Assembly (NCBI GenBank): GCA_017380575.1
Contig: JAFODS010000001.1
Span: 96,713-131,359, forward strand
Origin: Clostridia bacterium
GTDB taxonomy: Bacteria > Bacillota > Clostridia > Oscillospirales > Acutalibacteraceae
Reading direction: 5' to 3'
DNA length: 34,647 nucleotides
Shown: piece after piece, positions 8,291 through 34,647 of the stretch
Position numbering within the stretch: position 1 is the stretch's first letter
Layout: every line of letters starts with the position of its first letter
The notes under the pieces: generated by a model
Seen by the model: the letters and a program-made list of their open reading frames with translations, nothing else
Database searches by the model: none
Told to the model about the DNA's origin: nothing
Made by a program: the position numbers and the translations under genes

Positions 8291-8295
8291 ATCTA

Positions 8296-8440
8296 AGCTG
8301 TTCTTTATTCAAAGACAGCAGGTGCTTTATGCGTAACGGTTTTTAACCACCTGCCGAGGATAGGAACATACAGGATTCAGACGAAAGTCTGCCAATCTAT
8401 ATTTGTATGTTTGTTCCCTGTCCACGGTTTGTGGGCAGGG
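8296..8440 (+). promoter_or_regulatory. Ribosomal protein L10 leader RNA
   Basis: Matches the layout of the Firmicute L10 leader (Rfam L10_leader). A stem GCAGGTG/CACCTGC is followed by a long stem GGAACATACA...TGTATGTTTGTTCC that encloses a small CAGAC-GAAA-GTCTG hairpin, then a terminator hairpin. The L10(L12)4 complex is known to bind such leaders and promote termination, balancing stalk protein synthesis. Confidence 0.85.
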
Positions 8441-8448
8441 ATTATTTT
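8416..8448 (+). terminator. Attenuator terminator in the L10 leader
   Basis: CCCTGTCCAC pairs with GTGGGCAGGG (one T-G pair) and is followed by ATTATTTT. It is placed 40 bases before the rplJ start, so it acts as a conditional terminator. Its 5' arm overlaps the end of the upstream long stem (TTCC/CCC), which gives the switch. Confidence 0.8.
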
Positions 8449-8487
8449 CGTTATAGCACCATATCCCATTTTTGAGAGGTGAAAAAA

Positions 8488-12515: not shown

Positions 12516-13958
12516 TTATTTCCAATAATCAACCTCGTGTGGGAGATCGATATTTTTTGCTTTAAATACAGGGTCTTTTCCTGCTTTTTTCTGCAACTCG
12601 TAATCCTTAAGTGTGCGGATTGCATATTTGCCGAGGATTATGATAACAGGAATGTTGATGATTGTCATTGCACCCATAAGCACGTCCGAAACGTTCCAGA
12701 GAAGACCTGCGTTAAGTCCTGCACCGATAAAGATGAGGAGCGAAGCGACGATTCTGTAAAATGTTGTGAATTTCTTGCCGGGAATTTTGCCGTTGATGAA
12801 GGCAATGCCCTGGTCAACATAGTAAAGGTTGCCGAGAAGGGTAGTGAACGCGAAAAGAATCATTGCAACCGTTATAAAAATCGGACCTGCTTTGCCGAGT
12901 GTTGTGCTGAGTGCCGCTTGCACAAACGGTGCACCCGAAATTTCTGCTGTAGGCTCAACGCCTGAACACATACAAAGGAAAGCTGTTGCGGAACAAACAA
13001 GAATTGTGTCAATGAAAACGGAAAGCACCTGAACAAGACCCTGTTTTGCAGGATGGCTTACGTCTGCAGATGCCGAAGCATTGGGGGCGGAGCCTACACC
13101 TGCTTCGTTACTGAAAAGACCGCGCTTGATGCCGAACATTACACATGAACCCGTGAAGCCTCCGAAGATTGAATTGAAATCAAAAGCTTCTGTGAATATA
13201 CGCGAGAAAACTGACGGAAGCATCTTGAAATTAATTGCTGTAACAGCCAGAGCTACAAGAATGTATGCAACACCCATAATCGGCACAAGGAAGCTTGTGA
13301 TTTTAACAATTCGCTTACCGCCGCCGAAAAGGCAGACCGCAACAAGCCCTGCAACAACAGCACCGATAATCCAAGGAGTTGTCGATGCATCATAGAAGCT
13401 GTATGCAGAGAAAGTTGATTGCAGATTGTACGACGCGAGCATATTGAAGCCGACACCGTAAGTGGCAATGAGTAGAACGGAAAAGATTATTGCAAGCGGA
13501 CGGTTTTTAAGTGCACTCTGAATGTAATATGCAGGGCCGCCGTAACAGCCGTCGGGTCCTTTCTTTTTGTAAATCTGTGCGAGTGTGCTTTCAACAAAAG
13601 CGGAAGCACTTCCGATGATTGCGATAACCCACATCCAGAAAACCGAACCGAAACCGCCAAGGCAGATTGCGGTTGAAACACCGATAATGTTGCCCGTGCC
13701 GACACGCGAAGCGGTTGAAACCATCAACGCCTGGAAAGAAGAAACATTCTTTCCGTCAGATGGCTTTTCCATAACGGAACGGATCTGTTCGCCGAAAAGA
13801 CGGAACGGAGCAAAACGCGTTCTTACCGTGAAGTAAAGTCCTGCAAGAACGAGAAGGATGATAAGTATGTAAGTGTAAAGTGCGTCGTTGGTAAAGTCAA
13901 CAGCAGCTGAAAAACCTTCCAACACCGCAGATAAACTTGCTTTGATATTTTCTGTCAT
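12516..13958 (-). CDS. Sodium/alanine-type AGCS symporter
   Basis: 480-residue multi-spanning transporter of the alanine/glycine:cation symporter family, which imports small neutral amino acids with Na+ or H+. Family hallmarks include SSFQALMVSTASRVGTGNI near residues 73-91 and the central GIKRGLFSNEAGVGSAPNA. About eleven hydrophobic spans are visible along the chain. The start has AGGAGAGG upstream. Substrate specificity (alanine, glycine or glutamine) cannot be told from the sequence. Confidence 0.93.
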   Translation of the reverse strand: MTENIKASLSAVLEGFSAAVDFTNDALYTYILIILLVLAGLYFTVRTRFAPFRLFGEQIRSVMEKPSDGKNVSSFQALMVSTASRVGTGNIIGVSTAICLGGFGSVFWMWVIAIIGSASAFVESTLAQIYKKKGPDGCYGGPAYYIQSALKNRPLAIIFSVLLIATYGVGFNMLASYNLQSTFSAYSFYDASTTPWIIGAVVAGLVAVCLFGGGKRIVKITSFLVPIMGVAYILVALAVTAINFKMLPSVFSRIFTEAFDFNSIFGGFTGSCVMFGIKRGLFSNEAGVGSAPNASASADVSHPAKQGLVQVLSVFIDTILVCSATAFLCMCSGVEPTAEISGAPFVQAALSTTLGKAGPIFITVAMILFAFTTLLGNLYYVDQGIAFINGKIPGKKFTTFYRIVASLLIFIGAGLNAGLLWNVSDVLMGAMTIINIPVIIILGKYAIRTLKDYELQKKAGKDPVFKAKNIDLPHEVDYWK

Positions 13959-13988
13959 ATAATACCTCTCCTGATTTAGATTTTTGTA

Positions 13989-14032
13989 ACCCCTTTGTCA
14001 CTTTGCGAAGCCCCTTTTAGGGGAAAGTTGCC
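13989..14032 (+). repeat. Palindromic repeat, copy 1 (orientation A)
   Basis: Reads ACCCCTTTGTCA, an imperfect small hairpin, then CCCCTTTTAGGGG. It is related to the copy at 14567-14608 and is inverted relative to 14726-14767. It lies between the AGCS gene and the DUF559 gene. Confidence 0.75.
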
Positions 14033-14082
14033 AAGAGTAAGGGTTGGTTTCTTTTTTGTTGAACGTTTTTGTTTTATGCAAT

Positions 14083-14130
14083 CTTCTCTGAAAGGGAAGG
14101 TGACCGACGGGGTGGGTGTCGGGTAGCGAC
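14083..14130 (+). repeat. Palindromic repeat, copy 2 (orientation B, degenerate)
   Basis: TTCTCTGAAAGGGAAGGTGACC onward parallels the start of the 14726 copy with several substitutions, so it is the reverse orientation of copy 1. It ends next to the DUF559 stop codon. Confidence 0.5.
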
Positions 14131-14131
14131 T

Positions 14132-14530
14132 TTAATCACTGAAAGCCTGACTTTCCAAGCCTAACTTATCACATATGAATTTATCAATTTGCAGACAAAC
14201 TCCTTCGAAATTTGTTTTTATGTCGTGGTTTGAAAAACGGATAACATCAATTCCAAGGCTATTGATAAATCTTGTTCGCTCTGTATCTGCAATAAGGTTA
14301 GTTTCTTCGTAATGCTGACAGCCATCGATTTCGACAGCGATTTTTGCTTTTGATGAATAAAAATCAACAATGTAATTGCCTATAGGACGCTGTCGGTTGA
14401 ATCTTATCGGATAGTTTTTCAAGAAATGAAACCATAGTTGCTTTTCTTCCGGTGTCATTTCTTTTCTTAATGTCCGCGATTTTGCTCTTAGATTTTTATT
14501 GTACCCGGTGTACCTGAAATCTTTAGCCAC
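14132..14530 (-). CDS. DUF559 (Vsr-like PD-(D/E)XK) endonuclease-domain protein
   Basis: 132 residues from a GTG start at 14530 with GGGAG eight bases upstream. The frame stays open 37 codons further up, but that stretch is palindromic repeat and not protein. The core is the DUF559 fold: basic N-terminus (KNLRAKSRTLRKEMTPEEK), Asp56 in YIVDFY, then Glu67 and Asp69 in AVEIDGCQHYE, the expected metal-binding acidic residues of a Vsr-like nuclease. Family members are widespread and mostly of unknown role; some have been linked to repair or mobile DNA. Here the gene is enclosed by four copies of a palindromic repeat, which is the striking point. Confidence 0.85.
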   Translation of the reverse strand: MAKDFRYTGYNKNLRAKSRTLRKEMTPEEKQLWFHFLKNYPIRFNRQRPIGNYIVDFYSSKAKIAVEIDGCQHYEETNLIADTERTRFINSLGIDVIRFSNHDIKTNFEGVCLQIDKFICDKLGLESQAFSD

Positions 14531-14566
14531 TAAGAAAACTCCCTTGTTTTTAATCTTGCCTTCGGC

Positions 14567-14608
14567 ACCCCTTTGTCGCCATGCGACATTTCCCCTTTCA
14601 GGGGAAAT
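14567..14608 (+). repeat. Palindromic repeat, copy 3 (orientation A)
   Basis: ACCCCTTTGTCGCC then TTTCCCCTTTCAGGGGAAA. It is nearly an exact reverse complement of copy 4, differing only in the small inner hairpin. It lies just upstream of the DUF559 GTG start. Confidence 0.85.
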
Positions 14609-14725
14609 ACAGAAGGTCAGATTCTGCGGAACAGAAGGCAACCAATAAGTTCATTTTAGCGGAACAACAAGTTAACGGATTGTTTCTTGCAGAAGACTAA
14701 AACTTTGATGGTTCTTCTCTTTTTT

Positions 14726-14767
14726 ATTTCCCCTGAAAGGGGAAATGTCACGGAGTGACAAAGGGGT
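14726..14767 (+). repeat. Palindromic repeat, copy 4 (orientation B)
   Basis: TTTCCCCTGAAAGGGGAAA, then the hairpin TGTCAC-GGA-GTGACA, then AAGGGGT. It pairs with copy 3 over most of 42 bases across a 117-base gap. The rest of the gene-free stretch 14531-14840 shows no other structure or ORF. Confidence 0.85.
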
Positions 14768-14840
14768 TTATAAACAAAACAAATACGAGTAAATTATACA
14801 AAAAACGAGCATAAAAGTCAACGTGAAAGGGGAGGGAGAA

Positions 14841-14896: not shown

Positions 14897-15142
14897 TCAG
14901 TCTGCTGTGTAAGGCATAAGAGCTACGTGACGTGCACGCTTGATAGCTGTTGTAAGCTCTCTCTGATGCTTAGCGCAAGTACCTGTAACACGACGGGGAA
15001 GGATCTTGCCTCTGTCTGAAGTGTACTTGTTGAGCTTGTTGATATCCTTGTAGTCGATAGCTTCTACCTTATCAACGCAGAATGAACAAACCTTTTTACG
15101 GCCCTTTCTGTTCGGACGGCCGTTGTTCTTATCATAAGCCAT
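14897..15142 (-). CDS. rpsR: 30S ribosomal protein S18 (zinc-binding form)
   Basis: 81 residues; S18 pairs with S6 on the small-subunit platform. The zinc ligands Cys19, Cys22, Cys56 and His59 are all present (the C+ form). The core [27 protein letters not shown] matches the family. AGGAGG lies upstream. It is the last gene of the classic rpsF-ssb-rpsR operon. Confidence 0.97.
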
Positions 15143-19582: not shown

Positions 19583-19599
19583 AATTTCACAAAATAATT

Positions 19600-19683
19600 T
19601 CAGAGTAGACGGTTGTGCGTTTGATGCCGACGGGACGGGGAGTTGTCCGTCGGAAGGAAGTGCAACAGTTGCATCCCGCTGAA
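19600..19683 (+). promoter_or_regulatory. Tetrahydrofolate (THF) riboswitch
   Basis: Folate-sensing RNA element. The conserved pieces appear in order: AGAGTAGA at the 5' side, a GCGTT after it, a long stem GCCGACGG/CCGTCGG carrying GGGAG, GAAGGAAGTGC, and the closing TTGCATCCCGCT. This matches the THF-I riboswitch (Rfam THF), which binds reduced folates and shuts off folate transport or synthesis genes. The gene downstream is a folate transporter component, as expected. Confidence 0.88.
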
Positions 19684-29641: not shown

Positions 29642-29880
29642 CAAATTCGGGTTTGTCGGGATGTTTTAGCACAATTATGAAATCAAGTAAAGCCTCCCTT
29701 GCCTAAAGGGAGGTGGATTTTGCGAAGCAAAAGACGGAGGGATACTTTGCAGAAAAATATTGAAATTTCATAATTTTCTCTGAAAATATCCCCCAGTCAC
29801 GACTTCGTCGTGCCAGCCCCCCTTTAGGGCAAGGGGGCCTGAAAACTGCACCACTGAAGAACCCGACAAACCCGAATTTG
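29642..29880 (+). repeat. 239-bp MITE-like inverted-repeat element
   Basis: Its ends are a perfect 19-bp inverted repeat (CAAATTCGGGTTTGTCGGG at 29642-29660 and its complement at 29862-29880). Inside, two palindromic modules face each other: 29691-29742, with the hairpin CCTCCCTT/AAAGGGAGG, and 29788-29840, with GTCACGACTTCGTCGTG and GCCCCCCTTTAGGG. AATTATGAAAT (29673-29683) is also inverted at 29765-29775. No ORF is convincing. Layout resembles the 13989-14767 repeats. The right end coincides with the change in base composition. Confidence 0.75.
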
Positions 29881-31235: not shown

Positions 31236-33074
31236 ATGCAGCAGAAGAAAACCAAGCAGAAACCTTTCTCCGCCATGCTGGCGCTGATCGGCGAGAACTG
31301 GCCCAGCTATGTGGGCGCCATGATCGCCACGGTGCTGATCGTCATCATCGGCTTTATCACGCCCCTGGTGCTGGCGGAAACCATCGACTTCGTGCTGGAC
31401 ACGAAGCCCTCGACCCTCCCGGATTTTGTCCTTGCGCCCATTGAAAAGCTGGGCGGACGTGACTTCCTGCGCGCCAATCTGTGGGTGATGGGCCTTGCGC
31501 TGATCATCCTCAACGTGGTCAACGGCGTATTCACCTACGTGAAGGGCCGGCTGTCCGCGGTGGCGAGCGAAAACATTTCCCAAAGCCTGCGCGAGCGCCT
31601 CTACGCGCATCTGCAGCGGCTGCCCTTCGCCTACCACGTCAAGGCGGAGACCGGCGACCTCATCCAGCGCTGCACCTCCGACGTGGATACCATCCGCCGC
31701 TTCCTCTCTGTCCAGGTGATGGAGGTGGTCAATTCGGTGCTGATGATCGTGATCGCGCTGGTCATCCTGCTCCAGAAAAATGCGCAGATCACGCTGATTT
31801 CCATGGTCCTCGTGCCGCCGCTGTTCATCTTCGCCACCTGGTTCTTCAAGATGGTGCACAAGTCCTTCAAGGAAGCGGACGAGTGCGAGGGCAAGATGTC
31901 CGCCGCGCTGCAGGAGAACCTCTCCGGCGTGCGCGTGGTGCGGGCCTTCGGTCAGCAGCAACGAGAGGTGGAGAAGTTCGACGAGAAGAACGCCACCCTC
32001 CGCAAGCGCTGGCTGAAGCTGAATGTGCTCAGCGCCATTTACTGGTCCGGCGGCGACGCCATGTCCATGCTTCAAAGTCTGATCACACTGCTGGTGTGCA
32101 TCGTCTTTGCGGTGCGCGGCGACATCACCGCGGGTGAGCTGATCATCTTCACCAGCTACATTGGCATGCTGCTGTGGCCGGTGCGCTCTCTGGGCCGCAC
32201 GCTGAGCGATGCGGGCAAGTCGATGGTCTCCATGGGCCGCATCCAGGAGATCCTCCATGCCGAGCCCGAACCCGACGAGCCCGACGCCGTCAAGCCCGAC
32301 CTGCACGGCGATATCGTCTTTGACCACGTGTCCTTCGCCTACCCGGACGACGGCGTGCCCGTCCTCAAGGACGTGAGCTTCACCATCCCGGCAGGCTCCA
32401 CAGCGGCCGTCCTGGGCGGCACGGGCAGCGGCAAGTCCACCATGATGTACCTGCTCCAGCGGCTGTACGAACCGACTGCCGGTCGGATCACCATCGGCGG
32501 CGTGGACATCAAGACCATCGACCGCAGCCATCTGCGCAGCCATGTGGGCCTGATCCTGCAGGAGCCCTTCCTGTATTCCAAGACCATTTATGAGAACGTG
32601 GGCATTATCGGCAGCCGCGACGACAAGGACATCCATCATGCCGCGGACGTGGCTCGCGCCTCGGGCTTTATCGCCAAGGCGGACAAGGGCTGGGAGACCC
32701 TTGTCGGCGAGCGCGGCGTGACCCTCTCCGGCGGTCAGAAGCAGCGCATTGCCATCGCCCGCACGCTGCTCAAGGACAACCACGTCCTGATCTTCGACGA
32801 CTCCCTCTCCGCTGTGGACACCGAGACCGACGCGCAGATCCGCGCCGCCCTCAAGGGGGAGAAGTCCGGCGTGACTACGCTGATCATCTCCCACCGCGTG
32901 ACGACTCTTCCCCAGGCGGACATGATCCTCGTGCTGGAGGACGGCCGCATCAGCCAGCAGGGCACTCATGAGGAACTCTGCCGGCAGGAAGGCCTGTACG
33001 CCCGCATCAACGCCATTCAGAATACCCTTGAAGAAGAGCTGAACCACGCCATTGCGGCGGAAAATGCTCAGTAA
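31236..33074 (+). CDS. ABC exporter half, degenerate-site subunit (BmrC/TM287-like)
   Basis: 612 residues: a six-span membrane domain (about 1-330) fused to an ATPase domain. Walker A GGTGSGKST has Lys400, the signature LSGGQ is canonical at 497-501, and H-loop His553 is present. In the Walker B region LIFDDS the catalytic Glu is replaced by Asp522, as in the non-catalytic half of heterodimeric exporters. AAGGAG lies upstream. The partner gene starts 29 bases downstream. Probable role: multidrug or peptide export; the substrate is unknown. A 614-codon antisense frame is only a codon-bias mirror. Confidence 0.92.
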   Translation: MQQKKTKQKPFSAMLALIGENWPSYVGAMIATVLIVIIGFITPLVLAETIDFVLDTKPSTLPDFVLAPIEKLGGRDFLRANLWVMGLALIILNVVNGVFTYVKGRLSAVASENISQSLRERLYAHLQRLPFAYHVKAETGDLIQRCTSDVDTIRRFLSVQVMEVVNSVLMIVIALVILLQKNAQITLISMVLVPPLFIFATWFFKMVHKSFKEADECEGKMSAALQENLSGVRVVRAFGQQQREVEKFDEKNATLRKRWLKLNVLSAIYWSGGDAMSMLQSLITLLVCIVFAVRGDITAGELIIFTSYIGMLLWPVRSLGRTLSDAGKSMVSMGRIQEILHAEPEPDEPDAVKPDLHGDIVFDHVSFAYPDDGVPVLKDVSFTIPAGSTAAVLGGTGSGKSTMMYLLQRLYEPTAGRITIGGVDIKTIDRSHLRSHVGLILQEPFLYSKTIYENVGIIGSRDDKDIHHAADVARASGFIAKADKGWETLVGERGVTLSGGQKQRIAIARTLLKDNHVLIFDDSLSAVDTETDAQIRAALKGEKSGVTTLIISHRVTTLPQADMILVLEDGRISQQGTHEELCRQEGLYARINAIQNTLEEELNHAIAAENAQ

Positions 33075-33103
33075 TTCCCGACCTGCAAAGAAGGTGAAAA
33101 TAT

Positions 33104-34647
33104 ATGCAGTCCTTTCAGGAAGAAGATTATACCAAACGGTTTGACCTGTCCCTGTGGAAGAAGATTATCCGTCTGGCCAAGCCCTACCACAAGAACCTGC
33201 TGCTGACGATGATGTACATGGCCATCTGCGCCGTGATGGACGTGGTCTGGCCCCGGATGACCGGCATCGCCATGGATACCTTTATCAAGGACGGCAACAC
33301 GCAGGGCCTTGTGTGGTTCGCTGTGGCCTGCCTTGGCATCGCGGTGGTGCAGGTGTTTGCGATCTACAAATTCCAGATTCACAGCGGCAAGGTGGAGACC
33401 GGCACCTGCTACACCATCCGCAAGATGGGCTTCCAGAAGCTCCAGGAGCTGCCCTTTTCCTACTATGACCGCATGCCCGTGGGTTACCTGATGTCCCGAC
33501 TCACCAACGACACCCAGCGCCTGGGCGATACCATCGGCTGGTCCATCCTGGATCTGTGCTGGGGCGCGGTGTTCCTGGTTTCCTGCACGGTGCAGATGCT
33601 GCTGCTCAACTGGCAGCTGACGCTGATCCTCCTTCTGGTGCTGCCGCCGCTGGCTGTGATCTCGTGGAAGTTCCAGAAGGGCATCCTTGAATCCTACCGC
33701 CAGGTGCGCAAGCGCAATTCTCAGATCACCGCCGGCTTCAACGAGGGCATCAACGGCGCCAAAACCACCAAGACCCTTGTGCGCGAGGAGCTGAACATTG
33801 AGGAATTCAACGCCGTTTCCGCCGACATGAAGAAGGCTTCTGTCCGCGCGGCGACACTGAGCGCGCTGTTCCTGCCCATCGTGGTGTCCATCGGCTCCAT
33901 CGGTACCGCCTGGGCGCTGTGGCAGGGCGGTTCCTCCATCATCAACGGCGTGGAGATCATGGGCACGGTGATGACCATCGGCACCCTGCAGGTGTTCGTG
34001 AACTACACCGTTTCCTTCTTCCAGCCCGTGCGTGACATTGCCCGCATTTTTGCTGAAATGCAGTCTGCCCAGGCGGCGGCGGAACGCGTCGTGTCCCTGC
34101 TGGAGACCGAGCCGGATATCGTTGACAGCCCTGAGGTGGAGGCCGTCTTTGGCGACAACTTCCATCCCAAGCGCGAGAACTGGCCCGCCCTCATCGGCGA
34201 CATCGACTTTGAGGACGTGACTTTCCGCTACAAGGATGGCGAGCAGGTGCTGGAGAACTTCAACCTCCACGTTGACCACGGCCAGACCATCGCCCTGGTG
34301 GGTGAGACCGGCTCCGGCAAGTCCACCATCGTCAACCTGATCTGCCGATTCTACGAACCGACATCCGGTCGGATTTTGATCGACGGCGCGGATTATCGCA
34401 CCCGCAGCCAGCTGTGGCTCCAGTCCAACCTGGGCTATGTGCTGCAGTCGCCCCACCTGTTCTCCGGCACGGTGGCGGACAACATCCGCTACGGTCGTCC
34501 GGATGCCACTGACGAGGAAGTGCAGACGGCTGCCCGCATGGTCGGCGCGGAGGACTTCATCCTCGCCATGAAGGACGGCTTTGACGCCAATGTCGGCGAG
34601 GGCGGCAACCGCCTCTCCACCGGCCAGAAGCAGCTGGTCTCCTTCGC
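33104..34647 (+). CDS. ABC exporter half, probable catalytic-site subunit (cut by window end)
   Basis: The first 514 codons are visible from ATG 33104 (MQSFQEEDYTKRFDLSLWK). Six membrane spans lie within about 20-330, followed by the ATPase domain with Walker A GETGSGKST (Lys406) and signature LSTGQ at 504-508 in place of LSGGQ. A non-canonical signature in one half, complementing the Asp-for-Glu change in the other, is the rule for BmrCD or TM287/288 heterodimers. The Walker B residues lie beyond the edge and cannot be tested. The acidic N-terminal extension before the first span is common in BmrD-type halves. Confidence 0.9.
   Translation, partial: MQSFQEEDYTKRFDLSLWKKIIRLAKPYHKNLLLTMMYMAICAVMDVVWPRMTGIAMDTFIKDGNTQGLVWFAVACLGIAVVQVFAIYKFQIHSGKVETGTCYTIRKMGFQKLQELPFSYYDRMPVGYLMSRLTNDTQRLGDTIGWSILDLCWGAVFLVSCTVQMLLLNWQLTLILLLVLPPLAVISWKFQKGILESYRQVRKRNSQITAGFNEGINGAKTTKTLVREELNIEEFNAVSADMKKASVRAATLSALFLPIVVSIGSIGTAWALWQGGSSIINGVEIMGTVMTIGTLQVFVNYTVSFFQPVRDIARIFAEMQSAQAAAERVVSLLETEPDIVDSPEVEAVFGDNFHPKRENWPALIGDIDFEDVTFRYKDGEQVLENFNLHVDHGQTIALVGETGSGKSTIVNLICRFYEPTSGRILIDGADYRTRSQLWLQSNLGYVLQSPHLFSGTVADNIRYGRPDATDEEVQTAARMVGAEDFILAMKDGFDANVGEGGNRLSTGQKQLVSF

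Follow-up and report, generated by a model that had tools for sequence, protein, structure and literature searches.

A DUF559 nuclease gene and a family of structured palindromic repeats belong together: they form a unit whose left and right ends recur at sites with unrelated surroundings. Gene-less repeats exist as well, with a higher frequency in genomes that have a DUF559 gene. Such a unit is found as an insert in the window, the whole stretch of 34,647 nucleotides of Clostridia bacterium DNA analyzed here. Probably, this insert is a compact selfish unit, in which a small single-domain nuclease gene lies between structured palindromes as in REP/RAYT systems, and which is driven by its nuclease. 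The unit, its ends, and its mobility over evolutionary time rest on data, and the enzymatic step is the part that we infer. No transposition event was observed. The features concerned are as follows.

12516..13958, minus strand: sodium:alanine symporter gene, whose 5′ leader contains the insert (family match and empty-site alignment)
13988..14768, no strand: whole insert, 781 bp, ending in a perfect 15-nt inverted repeat, AACCCCTTTGTCACT / AGTGACAAAGGGGTT (13988-14002 / 14754-14768)
13989..14028, minus strand: outer left repeat copy, an imperfect triplex motif with its tail out of the insert (direction by eye)
14081..14130, plus strand: inner left repeat copy, degenerate, tail toward the DUF559 gene
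14132..14530, minus strand: DUF559 (YcjD-like PD-(D/E)XK) gene, about 132 aa if it begins at the likely GTG; mechanical ORF to 14641
14567..14608, minus strand: inner right triplex motif with an exact mirror tail, toward the DUF559 gene
14726..14767, plus strand: outer right triplex motif with an exact mirror tail, out of the insert
14897..15142, minus strand: rpsR, the neighbor on the other side of the insertion site
29693..29743, plus strand: triplex motif of another subtype (loop GCCTA), half of a gene-less inverted pair
29788..29837, minus strand: second half of the gene-less inverted pair (strict triplex-motif scan)

The first-pass annotation had described four related palindromes around a DUF559 gene, the third and fourth being near reverse complements, and this description holds. 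Three copies are detected mechanically (13989-14028, 14567-14608, and 14726-14767), the degenerate fourth lies at about 14081-14130, and 14567-14615 matches the reverse complement of 14719-14767 at 86% over 49 nt. By eye, the order of directions is tail-out, tail-in, gene, tail-in, tail-out. The single gene of the insert is indeed DUF559 (PF04480, E 9.5e-30, 103.1 bits against a cut-off of 20.6). The mechanical ORF (14132-14641) begins within a repeat, and the gene likely starts at the GTG at 14528-14530, as judged from the AAGGGAG upstream of it and from a relative (L043). The insert has a promoter-like TTGACT..TATAAT (by eye) on one side and the symporter gene’s ribosome site on the other. 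Its repeat recurs elsewhere in the window’s genome, so that the arrangement characteristic of REP/RAYT, a gene between inverted palindromes recurring in the genome, is present at the insert. Three DUF559 genes were detected in this genome, each between palindromes, one for each of three protein clades. Rfam families match neither the insert nor any of seven loci bearing the repeats; elsewhere in the window they match a ribosomal protein L10 leader and a THF riboswitch (8291-8455 and 19599-19683). PADLOC gave two weak partial matches. Separately, the region 31236-34647 contains two similar stretches with direct repeats of 101 and 71 nt (70-72%); the plus strand of these stretches resembles the LSGGQ region of ABC transporter ATPases, and long ORFs are open on both strands.

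A typical repeat copy consists of a pyrimidine arm, a loop, a complementary purine arm, a second hairpin, and a tail mirroring the purine arm, for example, TTTCCCC TGAAA GGGGAAA [TGTCACGGAGTGAC] AAAGGGG. Judged by sequence, the insert repeats share the layout of the BoxC/PIT/intrastrand triplex motif (TM) class, whose intergenic members are described as a pyrimidine arm, a purine arm, and a mirrored purine third block (Holder et al., 2015; PMC4666352). The G/C-rich BoxC-type motif is reported from >260 bacterial genomes, where it has been linked with genome instability; by CD and NMR, the isolated E. coli motif was shown to form a triplex (PMC4666352). A strict TM scan of the whole 34.6-kb window yields four motifs (14567-14607, minus; 14727-14767, plus; 29693-29743, plus; 29788-29837, minus), the last two bearing out the earlier remark that the modules at 29691-29840 follow a like plan. 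The outer left copy (13989-14028) and the degenerate copy (14081-14130) are imperfect and fail the strict rule, and the strict mirror rule is failed by the beta subtype. The labels alpha to epsilon are our own; inspection of proteins and repeats by eye had fixed them before a tree was made, so the tree agrees with them without being an independent test; the epsilon clade is weakly supported in it (59/77). Among relatives, the second hairpin has a stem of at least 5 bp in 76 of 95 distinct spacers, with 45 different arms, and the mean best stem is 5.4 versus 2.8 in shuffles. Its sequence varies between relatives, and its pairing is kept. The TM layout, as well as the spread of the pattern over phyla described below, goes beyond the first-pass annotation.

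Some copies lie in other settings. A 24-nt inverted repeat, CAAATTCGGGTTTGTCGGGATGTT, at 29642-29665 / 29857-29880 frames the gene-less TM pair of the window (29693-29837) and gives it a MITE-like appearance; a similar frame sequence is seen beside other repeat loci of the same genome. By eye, lone TMs are nested in the second hairpin of an alpha right end (L281), in the hairpin of an alpha relative (L037), and in beta-type hairpins (L003 and L008), and such nesting reveals the natural boundaries of the lone mobile repeat.

The repeats beside DUF559 genes were compared with those beside other genes at 80 named loci. A proteobacterial-Deinococcus query gave 579 confirmed relatives, of which these loci are the best 80 and therefore a non-random sample; their hosts are mainly Pseudomonadota, with Chloroflexi, Spirochaetes, Nitrospiria, Gastranaerophilales, and others. 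Among these best 80 of 579, the left and right flanks match each other (flank score at least 32) for 67 of 78 testable DUF559 genes, L125 and L157 being excluded for a short flank, versus 3 of 424 other ORFs taken from these loci and 2 of 149 control ORFs with intergenic DNA on both sides; 11 of the 78 lack matched flanks. The count remains 67 after masking of N in this set of the best 80 of 579, and L140, where an N run had raised the score, reaches 35 without it. TMs amount to 3.22/kb within 300 bp of the DUF559 gene (153 in 47,451 bases) and to 0.041/kb at more than 1 kb from it (27 in 661,933 bases), and strict TMs are found on both sides in 47, on one side in 21, and on neither side in 12 of the best 80 of 579. 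The tail of the nearest TM is directed toward the gene on the left in 51 of 58 cases (51 vs 7) and on the right in 52 of 57 (52 vs 5), again for the best 80 of 579. Neither of the two outcomes that the first-pass annotation named as refuting occurred: the repeats are concentrated at DUF559 genes and rare beside other genes, and most of the DUF559 homologues compared carry them.

Closer to the window the picture is similar. In its genus, 30 DUF559 loci have TMs on both sides in 16 cases, on one side in 10, and on neither in four. When the order and genus are taken together, a TM stands beside the gene at 48 of 58 DUF559 loci, versus 0 of 29 Vsr loci of the order (measured out of 34 matches; L237 and L216 were dropped as short). 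Seven divergent DUF559 loci from a phylum search have flank scores of at most 24; L077 and L088 are YcjD-like by protein, yet score only 21 and 19. Of 12 plasmid and phage DUF559 loci, nine score at least 32, L111 through a non-palindromic match. Where these loci are annotated, the gene interrupts clusters, namely pntAA-pntAB in Sphingomonas, and paaD-paaZ and two hpa-cluster positions in Deinococcus. In a separate flank comparison, the direct-repeat scores of L030 and L045 are contig-end artefacts.

Copy number also follows the gene. Among 297 genomes of the order, at least five copies of one palindrome pattern are present in 29 of 77 with a strong DUF559 match versus 9 of 220 without (odds ratio 14.2, p 2.7e-12), G401 and G340 with their weak matches being classed as negative; the other 48 of the 77 hold fewer than five copies of this single pattern. 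A reversed-pattern control gives 13 and 40 copies in all in the genomes with and without a strong match, respectively. Contrasts within genera, compiled by hand and including genus g216, where G340 is the sole negative, are up in 20, down in seven, and tied in five (Wilcoxon p 4.6e-4). Vsr presence is no predictor of copies (6/32 vs 32/265, p 0.21). TM-like palindromes persist in genomes without DUF559. In the window’s genus, whose genomes are 61 to 97% complete so that absences are soft, all 6 of 6 genomes having a DUF559 gene of the alpha clade contain loop GCCTA at least three times, as against 0 of 12 others, and, with copies beside the gene excluded, at least two copies are present in 5/6 versus 0/12. 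The co-occurrence is less clean for the epsilon loop, of which at least three copies are found in 3/3 genomes with an epsilon gene and in 3/15 without; G015, one of the latter three, has 25 epsilon-loop copies, but the sole DUF559 found there belongs to another clade.

Similar proteins carry similar ends in dissimilar places. In a comparison of 77 DUF559 proteins of the order (L034 and L038, broken or short, were left out), all 47 of 47 inter-family pairs with at least 70% identity (19 loci) have their flanking repeats in common, as against 0 of 74 pairs below 40% identity (Mantel p 0.002 for DUF559 pairs and flanking repeats). Farther out, at 180-1000 bp, none of the 47 pairs has DNA in common, and the median score is 24 as in 200 background pairs. 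Descent of the 47 pairs from one old insertion was considered; against it, the outer DNA is no more alike than in background pairs. Thirteen epsilon loci from eight host families, chosen by loop from the 77 order loci, allow the ends to be defined: the left hairpin CTCCCTTGTGTAAAGGGAG with at most two changes is present in 11 of 13, the left tail GGAGGGATT in 13 of 13, and on the right the hairpin is present in all 13 and followed by CTGTC[hairpin]GAC(T/G)GAGGGA in 13. The DNA directly outside differs among the 13, apart from about 20 nt common to five right ends (L202, L216, L223, L294, and L300). The epsilon units L028, L202, L203, L216, L219, and L223 come from different host families and have up to 89% protein identity in unlike surroundings, hinting that these units may have moved horizontally within the order. 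The genes are under strong purifying selection (median dN/dS 0.08 in 12 close pairs), and among the closest pairs listed, dS is >1 or undefined in 36 of 40. Conservation of the non-coding ends despite drift at silent sites is therefore as expected if the protein recognizes the ends.

Empty sites exist in relatives. The junction between rpsR and the symporter (AGCS) gene, where the first-pass annotation had suggested looking for one, lacks gene and repeats in four related genomes (G013, G010, G009, and G003), and at paaD-paaZ of Deinococcus one species has the DUF559 insert and another does not. Defined ends and an empty site in relatives, as expected of an autonomous transposon, are thus both found. 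Target duplications were not seen by eye at the window’s empty-site alignment, the Deinococcus hpa junction, which has no exact boundary, or the 13 epsilon loci. Matched flanks, control genes, co-occurrence, and shared ends in unshared surroundings together point to one REP/RAYT-like unit with an unrelated enzyme. With the empty sites added, the initial idea that the nuclease moves with the palindromes is well supported, and its analogy to REP/RAYT with a different enzyme stands.

The enzyme itself is a likely nuclease by its relatives. A PDB search with a 17-sequence profile gives the endonuclease-like 3hrl (4.8e-38), presumably from Neisseria gonorrhoeae, as the best match and the mobile intron protein 3r3p (9.3e-6), which we take to be I-Bth0305I, as the second. 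Invariant residues include D, E-x-D-G, and H, which presumably form the active site. At E <= 1e-8, a limit that may miss more distant DUF559 types, the window protein has relatives in 29 of 72,556 plasmid records and 2 of 50,697 phage records, a rarity that fits a chromosomal, RAYT-like life. VsrA of Caulobacter, a DUF559 protein, is reported to cause a DNA damage response when its methylase partner is absent (PMC12907096).

E. coli YcjD is also a DUF559 protein, and BoxC-like repeats lie on the 3′ side of ycjD (by eye). Directly before ycjD, a near-perfect inverted repeat with about 18-20 nt per arm overlaps the annotated start (L193, 850-892) and is a possible self-control hairpin. The sapF-ycjD-fabI query is mostly present in 3363 of 5426 E. 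coli genomes; in two ycjD-less strains examined, an efflux operon occupies the place, as is reported more widely (PMC12817139), so there is no clean empty site there. Neither is one found at ypfG-tktB (L256-L260), where one strain has a BoxC and four others compared have REP-like DNA; an insertion of BoxC at this place was considered and set aside in favor of a swap with REP-like DNA.

TMs are also carried by other elements. In G003, eight inverted TM pairs with a fixed spacing of 124 were considered as proof of DUF559-driven copying and rejected: since the conserved DNA extends beyond each pair, the pairs are parts of a longer dispersed repeat, and another element probably copied them. This dispersed repeat with its TM pair at fixed spacing is seen at L261-L268 and L271-L279, and several contigs end inside it. 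The G003 pairs and the window’s framed pair together indicate that such carriage is not confined to DUF559 units.

How could the selfish unit move? The nuclease would recognize the folded ends of its own subtype, perhaps single-stranded during replication, and would cut there, after which host repair or replication may complete the copying. Action of the nuclease on the palindromes would fit both the subtype matching and the conservation of the ends. The small protein has no room for a known strand-transfer domain in addition to its nuclease, so that joining would be left to the host; we know of no strand joining by PD-(D/E)XK nucleases. Lone repeats and gene-less pairs would be passengers, like the REPs of RAYT transposases.

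The main rival is homing into existing TMs, which we regard as unlikely but worth weighing. Homing endonucleases spread introns by cutting and recombinational repair; similarly, the DUF559 nuclease would cut at existing TMs or TM-like sites, and the gene-bearing unit would be copied in when homologous recombination repairs the break. A mobile intron protein as second-best PDB relative and the nested TMs would suit this, as would a Thermosynechococcus DUF559 gene that one paper places in the EDxHD homing family. However, no TM is seen by eye at the four empty sites of the window locus or at the empty paaD-paaZ site of Deinococcus, i.e., at two loci. It is rather improbable that the DUF559 gene is itself the passenger, the TMs being spread by another enzyme or by a host process. 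The copies riding in the longer repeat of G003, the palindromes persisting without DUF559, and the replacement of REP by BoxC at one E. coli site are what such an account would predict, but the repeats are specific to one family among those tested, as the counts for other ORFs and Vsr show, and their co-occurrence is subtype-specific. A Y1 transposase is not needed as mobilizer by its presence pattern either: a PF01797 (Y1 HUH) match is absent in 9 of 18 genus genomes, incomplete as these are, and seven of the nine (G002, G006-G010, and G015) hold DUF559 genes.

Alternatively, the repeats may be cis-regulators of a host repair or defense nuclease whose gene spreads by ordinary horizontal transfer. 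In the epsilon subtype, the start codon directly follows the left tail GGAGGGA, a possible ribosome site, and regulation of this kind would accord with the purifying selection and with the harm done by Caulobacter VsrA without its partner. Nevertheless, this has little probability, as the repeat is found also at the 3′ end and elsewhere in the genome, copy number follows the gene, and few plasmid or phage records carry a relative. Chance or a compositional artefact, for which the N-inflated score of L140 could have spoken had it not stayed at 35, is practically negligible in view of the control ORFs, the TM density, the copy-number contrast, and the Vsr controls.

For the selfish unit, a wider reading has, in our judgment, an even chance of being right: YcjD-type DUF559 proteins may be the missing enzymes of the bacterial BoxC/PIT/triplex repeats, including those of E. 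coli, and define a transposase-less class of mobile elements, in which one PD-(D/E)XK nuclease and two folded, partly triplex-forming ends would make up the whole unit and the scattered repeats would be its non-autonomous offspring. If true, a large family whose name still says “unknown” would gain a function. With a small conserved nuclease between TMs in many phyla, the spread of the repeats becomes testable with one protein and one oligonucleotide. Such hairpin repeats have been known for decades, and in the literature searched they are not tied to a mobility gene. A mobility gene was sought near the E. coli motif copies and none found, according to the BoxC study (PMC4666352), whose main text has no mention of “DUF559” or “ycjD.” In the portions of the literature at hand, mostly open papers, so that prior notice elsewhere is possible, we found no link between DUF559 and these repeats and no description that places E. 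coli YcjD or Caulobacter VsrA in a repeat unit; no paper was found for Vsr together with “repetitive extragenic palindromic.” In a Legionella paper, recombination hotspots include segments that contain a transposase along with a DUF559 gene.

Among known systems, several share a part of this organization. IS200/IS605 elements have unlike left and right hairpin ends, no target duplication, and a single small gene, which encodes a HUH transposase. The DUF559 unit resembles them in its unlike hairpin ends, its one small gene, and the absence of target duplication by eye, but has no HUH transposase. Rpn recombination-promoting nucleases, once named putative transposases, are PD-(D/E)XK enzymes too, of a different family, and we know of no palindromic unit in them. 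Vsr and the EDxHD homing endonucleases are nucleases related by sequence profile, but Vsr genes are without such repeats, and no intron or intein is seen at the DUF559 insert. The BoxC/PIT/TM repeats share the three-block layout, and their inverted pairs combine two types, like the left and right ends of the insert (PMC4666352); in contrast, a DUF559 gene lies between the motifs here, and the window copies add a second hairpin before the tail. The GTAG or CGTC tag that stands beside the palindrome in REP/RAYT (PMC2817692) was not seen by eye beside the repeat copies inspected in the window, the epsilon loci, and other repeat loci. Yet REP/RAYT comes close in plan: a small gene between two inverted palindromes, palindromes scattered elsewhere, and repeat and gene evolving together (PMC2817692). 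The difference is in the enzyme, a PF04480 PD-(D/E)XK nuclease here and a Y1 HUH (PF01797) transposase there, and, if our reading is true, the REP/RAYT plan would have arisen again with an unrelated enzyme.
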